A stretch of DNA of 64,000 bases, from NCBI GenBank assembly GCA_904392525.1, contig CAJFMW010000004.1, positions 1 to 64,000 on the forward strand. The letters are read 5' to 3'. The notes under the pieces are model-generated. The model was not told the DNA's origin. It saw nothing but the letters and a program-made list of their open reading frames with translations, and did no database searches. Position numbers and translations under genes: made by a program. Each line of letters begins with the position of its first letter. Positions within the stretch are counted from its first letter, which is position 1. Below are positions 20,068 through 55,302 of the stretch, in pieces. This stretch comes from an uncultured Eisenbergiella sp. GTDB taxonomy: Bacteria > Bacillota > Clostridia > Lachnospirales > Lachnospiraceae.

Positions 20068-21027
20068 TCAGACCGGCTTCGTTTCCAGAATCCGGTCAAA
20101 CAGCTTTGCACAGGAAAGCGTCAGGGAATGGGGTACTACCCGGCTTTCCCCCCTGCCTGCGCGGATGCAGGAAACGGTTTCCTGAATTTCATAGATAAAA
20201 CCGTTTTTCGTTTCCGTATCCCGGAAAGAAATCCCTTCTCCGCCATCCTGCGGATAGAAAAAAGCCTCCGACGCATAATGCGGATGGGGAAGCACAATCC
20301 GCCCCCTGTCTCCGTAAATAACCGCTTTTTCCTCCAGAGCCGCATCGAAGCTCGCGGTAAGGGAGGCGCACATTTCCGGGAAATGAAGCACCACATGATC
20401 CGTCACATCCACCCCTGTCGGCCCCCAGACCGCAGATGCCGTAAGGCTGTCCTCCTCTCCGAGCAGAAATCTGGCAATCTCATAGACATACACTGTGATG
20501 TCGTAGGCTGCGCCGCCGCCCAGCAGCGGATTCCGGTAACGGTTTCCGGCATCCGGCGGAGCCAGAAAGCCGATATCGATCTGTGCAAAGGAAGGCTTTC
20601 CCGCGTATTCCTGCCTGATCCACTCCCGCGCCTGCTTCACCGCCGGAAGGAACCTGCTCCAGAGCGCTTCCATCACAAAGATTCCTTCCTTTTCAGATCG
20701 GGAAAACACCTCCTGCGCCTGCGCGCTGTTCAAAAATGCCGCTTTTTCACACAGAACCGGAACGCCGTGGTCCAGACACAGCATGGTGAGTTCATAGTGG
20801 GAATCCGGCGTAGTGGCGATATAAACGCAGTCCGGCTTTTCCTTTTCCAGCATCCGTTCATAATCTCCATAGGAGCCGCTGACTCCATTCTCTGCCGCCC
20901 ATTTCCCGGCCCTTTCTGCGGACTTGCTCGCCACAGCAGCGACCTCGCAGCCGGCCATGCGCGCTGCCTCACAGAATTTTCCTGCGATATTCCCCGCTCC
21001 CATAATTGCGAAACGAAATGTTTCCAT
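20068..21027 (-). CDS. Gfo/Idh/MocA-family oxidoreductase
   Basis: A 319-aa dehydrogenase of the short dimeric-dihydrodiol-dehydrogenase/glucose-fructose oxidoreductase type. It has FAIMGAGNIAGKFCEAA at the N-terminus, VPVLCEKAAFLN in the family Lys motif and GGGAAYDITVYVYEI in the substrate domain. AAGGAGG lies 6 bases before the ATG at 21027. It stands alone between a convergent membrane-protein gene and the hairpin array at 21041-21195, so substrate and pathway are not indicated. Confidence 0.86.
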   Translation of the reverse strand: METFRFAIMGAGNIAGKFCEAARMAGCEVAAVASKSAERAGKWAAENGVSGSYGDYERMLEKEKPDCVYIATTPDSHYELTMLCLDHGVPVLCEKAAFLNSAQAQEVFSRSEKEGIFVMEALWSRFLPAVKQAREWIRQEYAGKPSFAQIDIGFLAPPDAGNRYRNPLLGGGAAYDITVYVYEIARFLLGEEDSLTASAVWGPTGVDVTDHVVLHFPEMCASLTASFDAALEEKAVIYGDRGRIVLPHPHYASEAFFYPQDGGEGISFRDTETKNGFIYEIQETVSCIRAGRGESRVVPHSLTLSCAKLFDRILETKPV

Positions 21028-21040
21028 AAATAACCTCCTT

Positions 21041-21195
21041 GCCGAAGCGTTTTACGCTGAGGCACGCGCGCCGAATCTCCAATTCGGCGCTGCGCAAGAC
21101 TACAAATCCCATAATGGGATTTGTAGTCTTAGGATTTGTGACGCTTCGGCACAAATCCAGGTTGAAAAATGCGCTATCGAGCGCATTTTTCAACC
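21041..21195. repeat. Leader hairpin array, copy A
   Basis: The array begins with GCCGAAGCG...ACGCTGAGG (21041-21062). Four hairpins follow: 21068-21090 (9-base arms), 21096-21130 (16-base perfect arms, 3-base loop), 21132-21158 (9-base arms) and 21160-21195 (16-base perfect arms around ATCG). The layout parallels the array at 55174-55302. The third and last hairpins share a frame with that copy but have different stem sequences. Confidence 0.9.
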
Positions 21196-21225
21196 ACCCC
21201 TCCATTCTCCGCTCCCTGAATTGGA

Positions 21226-23914: not shown

Positions 23915-23930
23915 CTCTACCTCTCTTTCT

Positions 23931-24034
23931 GCCGCGCAAGCGGCACTAAAATCATAGGAAGAATGGCGTAAGCCATTCTTCGGCACGAAACGAAGGTTCG
24001 TGCCAACCTCTTCTTTCTGCCGCATACAGGCGGC
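23931..24034. repeat. Leader hairpin array upstream of uxaC
   Basis: Four hairpins. GCCGC-GCAA-GCGGC (23931-23944). A perfect 10-base stem closed by GTAA (23958-23981). GGCACGAA/TTCGTGCC with a 7-base loop (23982-24004). GCCGC/GCGGC (24019-24034). GCAA and GTAA would be GNRA tetraloops in RNA. Confidence 0.8.
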
Positions 24035-24066
24035 GTAAAATAATGAAGAAAGGCATAAGCCCTTCA

Positions 24067-24080
24067 TGTAAACGCTTACA
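24067..24080. promoter_or_regulatory. LacI-type/cre operator downstream of the uxaC promoter
   Basis: TGTAAACGCTTACA matches the catabolite-responsive element pattern at every fixed position. It sits about +8 to +21 relative to the predicted uxaC transcript start, a repressing position. It may be bound by CcpA or by a uronate-specific LacI protein. Confidence 0.65.
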
Positions 24081-24162
24081 AAACTTTTTCTTCATTATAT
24101 TCCACATAAGCAGAAAAGTCAATGAAAGACTTGACTTCATGGGTAAACAGGTGTACTTTAAA

Positions 24163-37519: not shown

Positions 37520-37621
37520 GCCGCCGCAGGCGGCATTTAAATCAGGTGAAGAATCACGAAGTGATTCTTCCAGGAAGACAGGCTTCAGGCTGTCTTCCGC
37601 CTTTCAGCCGCCGCAGGCGGC
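37520..37621. repeat. Leader hairpin array with duplicated GCCGCC hairpin
   Basis: Hairpins: GCCGCC-GCA-GGCGGC at 37520-37534 and again at 37607-37621 within a 24-base direct repeat (37514-37537, 37601-37624); GAAGAATCAC-GAA-GTGATTCTTC (37548-37570); GGAAGACAG/CTGTCTTCC (37573-37598). The middle hairpin shares its outer GAAGAAT/ATTCTTC frame with the one at 23958 but has a different inner stem. Confidence 0.85.
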
Positions 37622-54165: not shown

Positions 54166-55155
54166 CTAAGGCGTCTTTGCTTCCAACGCCCACTTATCCC
54201 CGCCGTCCGGAGTATATTTGTTGTACATCCAGTTTCCGGTCAGCTCGTTGCGGATGCGCAGACATCCGTCCTCATCCTCCATCTCAAACAGAAGCATCCG
54301 TTCCTGGCCGCTTCTGTTCGGAGAATGCAGCCCCATCAGGAGCCTGCCCGCAAAGTCCGTAAAGAGCATGGAGTGGCCGCCGTCCTGGCTGAACAGGGGC
54401 TCCGGCTCCTGTTTCCAGGGCCCGGTGATCTCTCCGGACAGGGAACGGGCATAGCCGCAGGTGTAGGCTGTATTGGAAAAGCTGCTCCAGACCATGAGAA
54501 GCTCTCCGTTCTTCGCCCGATGCATGTAAGGGCCGTCCGTCACCCTGGCCCAGCCCATATGGGGCTGGGGCTCGGTCAGCTTCCACAGGCCCGACGGATC
54601 GGTGAACTTCCAGGGCGCTTCCGAAGCGCGGAACAGAATGACAGGCTCTCCGACGGAGTCTGACAGATCCTCCTTCATGCGGATGGCACAGATCTGACCG
54701 TCCTGTACCTGAAGCCATTCATGGCAGAACACCATCCAGGGATTTCCCTTTCTGTCCTCATACAGGGTTCCGTCCAGACACTGCCAGTCCGCAGGGGTGG
54801 CCGGGCCGTTCTTCTTCGGTACAAAGGGGCCTCTCGGAGTATCCGCCTCCAGGAACTGACAGCCCCGGTATCCGCCCGGCGCGCGGAAGGAGCTGATCAG
54901 ATAGTATTTTCCCCGCCAGTAATGACATTCCGGCGCCCAGAAATCAAGCGGCCCCCAGAAATCCTCATCCGGTTCAAACACGGGATAGCTTTCCGACCAC
55001 CAGATCAGGTCATCGCTATCCCGGACATTCACCGCACGCCCTTTCTGTCCCGGCCTGGCAAAGCAGTCGTACAGAAAATATTTCCGTTCTTCCCTGCTGG
55101 GAAGAATGCACACATCCCTCGTATGCAGATCCCTGACATGAATTTTTCCATTCAT
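54166..55155 (-). CDS. GH43-like five-bladed propeller glycosidase
   Basis: A 329-aa protein with glycoside hydrolase family 43 features. The N-terminal HTRDVCILP holds the likely general base (D14), then FWAPECHYWRGKYYLISSF and DGTLYEDRKGNPWMVF, with DGPYMHRAKNGELLMVWS further on. Activities in this family include arabinofuranosidase and xylosidase. ATG 55155 is nine bases from GGAGGGG and is preferred to 55161 and 55173. No signal peptide. A hairpin array lies directly upstream. Confidence 0.85.
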   Translation of the reverse strand: MNGKIHVRDLHTRDVCILPSREERKYFLYDCFARPGQKGRAVNVRDSDDLIWWSESYPVFEPDEDFWGPLDFWAPECHYWRGKYYLISSFRAPGGYRGCQFLEADTPRGPFVPKKNGPATPADWQCLDGTLYEDRKGNPWMVFCHEWLQVQDGQICAIRMKEDLSDSVGEPVILFRASEAPWKFTDPSGLWKLTEPQPHMGWARVTDGPYMHRAKNGELLMVWSSFSNTAYTCGYARSLSGEITGPWKQEPEPLFSQDGGHSMLFTDFAGRLLMGLHSPNRSGQERMLLFEMEDEDGCLRIRNELTGNWMYNKYTPDGGDKWALEAKTP

Positions 55156-55173
55156 TTTCATTTTCCCCTCCAT

Positions 55174-55302
55174 GCCGAAGCGATACGCTGAGGCCGCGAG
55201 GAGAAATCACGCAGGTGATTTCTCCTCTGCGATCACAGCAGTTTTGTGCTTCGGCGCAAAACTGCTGATTGAAAAATAAGCCATCGGGCTTATTTTTCAA
55301 TC
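55174..55302. repeat. Leader hairpin array, copy B
   Basis: Starts GCCGAAGCG-ATACGCTGAGGC (55174-55194), as in copy A. Hairpins: GAGGAGAAATCAC-GCAG-GTGATTTCTCCTC (55198-55227, 13-base perfect arms), CAGCAGTTTTG/CAAAACTGCTG (55236-55267) and GATTGAAAAATAAGCC-ATCG-GGCTTATTTTTCAATC (55267-55302, 16-base perfect arms). The last keeps the TTGAAAAAT/ATCG/ATTTTTCAA frame of copy A. Confidence 0.92.

Follow-up and report, generated by a model that had tools for sequence, protein, structure and literature searches.

Two hairpin arrays on one contig of an uncultured Eisenbergiella species (Lachnospiraceae) raise the question of why a constant frame should enclose stems whose sequences differ. Both lie in the window considered here, a stretch of 64,000 nucleotides, and the first-pass annotation had described each as a header followed by hairpins in the same order. 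Positions and order are as described: the headers occupy 21041-21063 and 55174-55194, and the final hairpins, at 21160-21195 and 55267-55302, have perfect 16-bp arms around ATCG, with inner stems of GCGCT/AGCGC in one array and AAGCC/GGCTT in the other. The header is likewise present in both; read in the sense of the downstream genes, however, which is the minus strand of the window, it is the last hairpin, directly 5' of the Shine-Dalgarno sequence. In gene sense the two layouts are identical, running through hairpins A, B, an optional C, D, and E to ATGGAGG-spacer-ATG, and comprise the following features.

21196-21205, minus strand: Shine-Dalgarno-like sequence flanking array 1 on its upstream side (gene sense ATGGAGGGGT)
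21160-21195, minus strand: hairpin A of array 1 (GGUUGAAAAAUGCGCU-CGAU-AGCGCAUUUUUCAACC)
21132-21158, minus strand: hairpin B of array 1, with the loop at 21141-21149 reading CCGAAGCGU in gene sense
21096-21130, minus strand: optional hairpin C of array 1, missing from most copies
21064-21095, minus strand: hairpin D of array 1, core at 21068-21090
21041-21063, minus strand: hairpin E of array 1, gene sense GCC-UC-AGCGU-AAA-ACGCU-UC-GGC
21034-21040, minus strand: Shine-Dalgarno sequence AAGGAGG, directly 3' of hairpin E of array 1
21027-21025, minus strand: start codon ATG after array 1
20068-21027, minus strand: gene after array 1, a GFO/IDH/MocA oxidoreductase of 319 aa
55303-55311, minus strand: Shine-Dalgarno-like sequence flanking array 2 on its upstream side (gene sense ACAGGGGAA)
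55267-55302, minus strand: hairpin A of array 2
55236-55267, minus strand: hairpin B of array 2, loop region GCCGAAGC at 55248-55255
55198-55227, minus strand: hairpin D of array 2
55174-55194, minus strand: hairpin E of array 2
55165-55173, minus strand: Shine-Dalgarno sequence AUGGAGGGG after array 2
55161-55159, minus strand: start codon ATG after array 2
54166-55161, minus strand: gene after array 2, a glycosyl hydrolase of family 43 (GH43), 331 aa

Hairpin E is thus followed by AAGGAGG in array 1 or ATGGAGGGG in array 2, and then by the start codon. As gene-sense RNA, array 1 folds at -95.8 kcal/mol (z -10.4 against dinucleotide shuffles) and array 2 at -71.7 kcal/mol (z -7.6), with 0 of 200 shuffles as good in either case. 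No intrinsic terminator was found in either array, and a scan of the window against Rfam at the gathering level returned no match, in keeping with the earlier statement that no named family has this layout.

The frame is not confined to these two arrays. The assembly of this genome (G000; 290 contigs, 82% complete) contains 27 exact E hairpins and none of the reversed pattern, and the same pattern occurs in 8 of 13 genomes of the genus, at 9-43 copies each, again with no match for the reversed control. When a wider genome collection was scanned, the close relatives came from Candidatus Eisenbergiella species and other Lachnospiraceae, the many scattered single matches in other phyla being chance matches. 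With 29 copies as input, the covariance model R1 detected relatives in 42 of 299 sampled Lachnospiraceae, representing 41 genera and in many of these at 10 or more places; of 399 genomes drawn from the phylum as a whole it picked out 2, namely this genome and one weak match. The data are metagenome assemblies in which copies frequently stand at contig ends and, since repeats break such assemblies, the copy numbers are lower bounds; contigs that start or end about 100 bp inside a copy are numerous in G001, G005, and further members of the genus. A search for plasmid carriage found none, and viral contigs searched with two patterns yielded no element. Phage carriage by way of MT838414.1 (L304), which holds one copy, was rejected: the record is unverified and its reading frames look bacterial (presumably MBOAT-like and Tex-like), so that it is probably host sequence.

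Three properties had escaped the first-pass annotation: the place of the element between Shine-Dalgarno sequence and start codon, its mobility, and a covarying long-range pairing between hairpins B and E. That the arrays lie in leaders had been noted for the window, and it holds for nearly all copies elsewhere. An open reading frame of at least 60 codons follows 81 of 92 pattern-selected copies of the genus, a set that includes a few chance matches from other phyla; tandem junctions or solitary E hairpins account for several of the exceptions. The start codon falls exactly 12 nt past E in 62 of those 81 copies, and at the same offset in most of 32 copies from other genera. The downstream genes are unrelated to one another; they include housekeeping genes, and among their products are a P-type ATPase, MerR, RuvA, MnmE, SmpB, NAD synthase, and GalT, as well as MetK, TyrS, QueC, and GatB. 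At one of these loci (L271:1321-1634) the element copy has a SAM riboswitch close upstream and metK after it, and at another (L284:2589-2753) a TwoAYGGAY RNA (99 bits) is found some 1 kb away from the copy.

The stems themselves covary. In alignment A1 the consensus structure comprises 31 pairs, of which 16 show compensatory changes on both sides, and 96.4% of stem cells are paired; the fold is therefore maintained while the sequence diverges, as had been proposed, and the variation is not limited to one arm. Stem covariation reaches 0.305, against 0.126 for shuffled and at most 0.084 for slid alignments, figures from 500 shuffles over related rows that are not to be read as probabilities. An exchange of inner segments, the other possibility that had been raised, also occurs, in that whole stems are swapped as modules (L007 combines the A2 stem with B1 and D1). 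The loop of hairpin A is YGAU in most copies even though its stem changes. Stems A and D have no excess of G-U in the gene-sense strand (6 G-U and 11 A-C among distinct events in A1), and with no wobble bias these hairpins may be kept at the DNA level or by template switching.

A further pairing connects two parts of the element that lie well apart. In gene sense the 3' arm of E, which immediately precedes the Shine-Dalgarno sequence, has its complement in the loop of hairpin B; in array 1 this arm is 21041-21050 and the two segments read CCGAAGCGU/ACGCUUCGG. Other genera have CCGGAGCGU/ACGCUCCGG at this position, and further combinations among them are CCGAGAACGU/ACGUUCUCGG (L295), UCGAAACGU/ACGUUUCGG (L292), CCGCAGGCGC/GCGUCUGCGG (L288), and CUGAGCGA/UCGCUCGG (L284). 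Across genera, 8 of the 9 pairs show two-sided changes among 33 distinct rows, non-pairing rows included, and covariation is 0.465 against 0.213 (sd 0.023) for shuffled and at most 0.124 for slid rows. We regard this covariation as strong but not as a probability, given that the rows are related and that in some of them the 9-mers were positioned manually or by choosing the best pairing. Wobbles in the gene-sense strand are G-U in 18 cases and A-C in 4 (p = 0.004) among 24 distinct pairings, which were chosen by a threshold that scores G-U and A-C alike. A function on the opposite strand would reverse this bias, and the excess of G-U thus makes the mRNA the likely carrier of the pairing. The pseudoknot has been lost from some copies (L018, L066, L068, L090, L269, and L294). 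In L025:642-775 a joint change has affected the B loop (GCUGAAG) and D in its 3' arm (UUCAGC) while E is unchanged, and the B loop may pair with D as well.

The 3' arm of E cannot pair with its own 5' arm and with the B loop simultaneously, so the two states are mutually exclusive, and it is from this exclusiveness that we infer a translational switch or insulator. In 11 copies the B-E duplex is predicted at -10.8 to -21.1 kcal/mol and the E hairpin at 0 to -10.7 kcal/mol, loop costs ignored; the conserved UC/UC internal loop weakens the E hairpin.

Comparison of orthologous loci indicates that the element is mobile. Array 2 is present in the sister genome G010 at 97% identity, and its site is empty in G005, G008, and G011 (loci L234, L235, and L236), where, for example, AAAGGGGAACGAAG-ATG runs uninterrupted. 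Array 1 is missing from G010, which reads ATTGGAGGAAACT-ATG, the left flank there not being comparable because another gene lies just upstream. At that empty site (L242; G010:C85:26500-30500) about 1 kb with an extra reading frame stands between a LacI-type regulator and the oxidoreductase, and the C-terminal repeats of the extra product are, we assume, of the kind seen in Rpn-type proteins. A third copy (L008) is absent at L155, which reads GGCATGGAGGAAATG-ATG. Tandem units, which likewise point to mobility, occur in L224/L244, L172, L073, and L291, arranged head-to-tail and joined at ATGGAGG, and three such units stand behind GGAGGAATAG, which ends an upstream reading frame. Filled sites carry Shine-Dalgarno-like sequence on both sides of the element. 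Left and right flanks score 6.8 in similarity, against 5.99 (sd 0.18) for shuffled pairs, and many pairs differ; a target-site duplication is possible. By inspection, the element ends GATTGAAAAAT and CGCTTCGGCATGG are not inverted with respect to each other, so that terminal inverted repeats are lacking. Modules have been lost in L001, L004, L005, L013, and L017, and L184 and L091, which represent one site in two species, differ only in the presence or absence of hairpin C. This hairpin looks like a near-perfect inverted copy of neighboring element sequence, as from template switching. A scan of the loci for an autonomous form of greater length, in which hairpin A would lie at a large distance 5' of E, found none. 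The Y1 transposase PF01797 was sought in the copy-rich genomes G000 (82% complete), G001, G005, G008, and G010 and found in none of the five, and we rejected it as the present mover.

Our preferred reading, which we consider probable though well short of certain, is that the two arrays are copies of a dispersed, mobile Lachnospiraceae element that works at the RNA level as a switch or insulator next to the Shine-Dalgarno sequence; its position and conserved fold suggest that it can affect or protect the translation of unrelated genes. An element of about 105-165 nt would insert between Shine-Dalgarno sequence and start codon in the sense of the gene, leaving a Shine-Dalgarno sequence on both sides. 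Once transcribed as part of the leader it would fold into A, B, (C,) D, and E, and the 9-10 nt before the downstream Shine-Dalgarno sequence would pair either with their own 5' arm, forming E, or with the B loop, forming a mismatch-free pseudoknot over D. With B undisturbed, the pseudoknot would stand next to the Shine-Dalgarno sequence; a ribosome starting from the upstream Shine-Dalgarno sequence on a conserved NTG-AAA-AAU would unfold hairpins A and B, leaving E to form in place of the pseudoknot, with leader translation as the likely trigger. In both states the downstream Shine-Dalgarno sequence would be single-stranded and apart from the upstream sequence, and the host gene would be translated, perhaps coupled to translation of the leader. 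Since neither predicted state buries the downstream Shine-Dalgarno sequence, the scheme fits the tolerance of the element by housekeeping genes, and for the same reason an on/off effect is not obvious. Dispersal, position, empty sites, the covariation of stems and pseudoknot, and the strand bias of the latter are observed; regulation, leader translation, and mobilization in trans are the parts of this scheme that we infer.

Several other accounts have to be weighed against it. It is possible, if doubtful, that the arrays are miniature transposable elements of the REP or IS200/IS605 type acting at the DNA level, whose hairpins are recognized as single-stranded DNA by an enzyme working in trans with GGAGG as the target; placement at Shine-Dalgarno sites would then follow from the frequency of GGAGG there, and the RNA fold would have no function for the host. 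The lack of terminal inverted repeats, the fixed orientation to GGAGG, and the head-to-tail tandems with their ATGGAGG joints all suit such an element, as do the tandem at GGAGGAATAG, which is the end of an upstream reading frame and not a Shine-Dalgarno sequence, the lack of an RNA-strand wobble bias in stems A and D, and the tandem G-A mismatches that the E hairpin has on the opposite strand. The absence of PF01797 from the five copy-rich genomes counts against it, however, and DNA recognition does not predict a B-E pairing that covaries and favors G-U on the mRNA strand. That pairing also speaks against the suggestion that template switching in palindromes during replication keeps the stems complementary without selection. 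Such switching would account for how hairpin C arose at one site, as an almost exact inversion of neighboring sequence, and for stems A and D being free of wobble bias, but it leaves unexplained why the B loop and E arm, which lie some 60 nt from each other on either side of D, are complementary, why their pairing is biased toward G-U, and why the A loop is conserved. The B-E covariation already counts against it as a full account, and we consider it improbable.

The same pairing, with its G-U bias on the mRNA strand, would be expected of a cis-regulatory RNA class, riboswitch-like or a protein-binding leader, controlling a large regulon and itself spread between genes by recombination. Covariation of the leader structure, the fixed place 5' of the Shine-Dalgarno sequence, and the conserved YGAU loop of A and UC/UC loop of E argue in the same direction. 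Yet the downstream genes have no pathway in common, sites vary among species of one genus, tandem copies exist, and apart from short loops no strongly conserved ligand-like core is seen, all of which makes this account unlikely, if marginally less so than template switching. Finally, the repeats might encode a leader peptide, the palindromes being a by-product of codon conservation. In most copies NTG-AAA-AAU does stand 5-7 nt past the upstream Shine-Dalgarno sequence and remains open for a median of 27 codons, but the TGA inside TGAAAAAT itself closes the other frames, so that this openness is not independent evidence. In addition, reading through B, D, and E does not stay in one frame from copy to copy (L273, L279, and the copies with hairpin C), and stop codons fall at many different places. 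We therefore rejected a leader peptide as the conserved product and think this explanation very improbable.

The repeat is apparently without earlier description: a literature search that reached few of the subscription journals found no account of the element. Translational riboswitches with a pseudoknot near the Shine-Dalgarno sequence, such as the preQ1 and SAM-II types, resemble it in having alternative pairings beside that sequence. Unlike them, the element is mobile and multi-copy, precedes unrelated genes, and keeps the Shine-Dalgarno sequence outside the pairing. Among Rfam families TD-2 RNA (RF03162) alone shows a notable, though weak, resemblance. It is likewise an A/T-rich string of hairpins of similar size, and one copy (L028) scores 54.4 bits against its gathering score of 48.7; of 31 matches in the genome one passes, array 1 reaches 47 bits against the threshold of 48.7 and array 2 has no match at E values up to 10. 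The matches fall on the strand opposite to the gene-sense structure, however, and the consensus loops AUGGAU and ACGGAU are missing, loops of the UCCAG and UAUCAA type appearing on that strand in the element alignments. Wrong strand and missing loops led us to reject membership in TD-2. With REP/BIME sequences and their RAYT transposase, and with IS200/IS605 derivatives, the element has in common palindromes that are imperfect and adjoin a short fixed motif, insertion in a set orientation, and tandems; it differs from them in its much longer multi-hairpin architecture, its RNA-level pairing, and the lack of a Y1 transposase in the five copy-rich genomes. With MITE- and BOX-like repeats it shares many dispersed copies and orthologous empty sites. 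The nearest described kind is represented by BOX, RUP, and SPRITE of Streptococcus pneumoniae, interspersed repeats of modular build that fold strongly, are probably moved in trans, and are co-transcribed with genes (PMC3049150). The difference lies in place and ends. BOX, RUP, and SPRITE are found preferentially between convergent genes, and two of the three, BOX and RUP, carry both terminal inverted repeats and target-site duplications (PMC3049150), whereas the present element occurs almost only between Shine-Dalgarno sequence and start codon, lacks terminal inverted repeats, and contains a pseudoknot that covaries.

The hairpins at 23958 and 37548, with their constant GAAGAAT ends, had been taken as relatives of the arrays. 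They belong instead to another repeat with a different constant part. This second family, seen in the window at 37520-37621 and 23930-24110, consists of variable hairpins followed by the constant palindrome GCCGCCTGCGGCGGC and by GAAAGGAG-ATG, and it, too, lies directly 5' of start codons. Its palindrome occurs 29 times in exact form in this genome, often paired 86-88 bp apart, and 11 of the 13 genomes from the genus contain the family.

Small interspersed repeats are commonly regarded as DNA parasites that keep clear of translation signals, and the element described here sits almost exclusively between Shine-Dalgarno sequence and start codon, keeps a covarying RNA pseudoknot while it moves, and counts essential-type genes among its hosts. 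It is tempting to speculate, although we hold this to be rather unlikely, that it is a mobile element whose RNA fold is selected in each new leader, either a portable translational switch passing from gene to gene or a SINE-like element moved by way of RNA and landing at Shine-Dalgarno sites. If the main reading is confirmed, a single mobile sequence could subject many genes in abundant bacteria of the gut to one shared translational device, and orthologous sites that are filled in one sister species and empty in another would offer a natural experiment on what an insertion does to expression.
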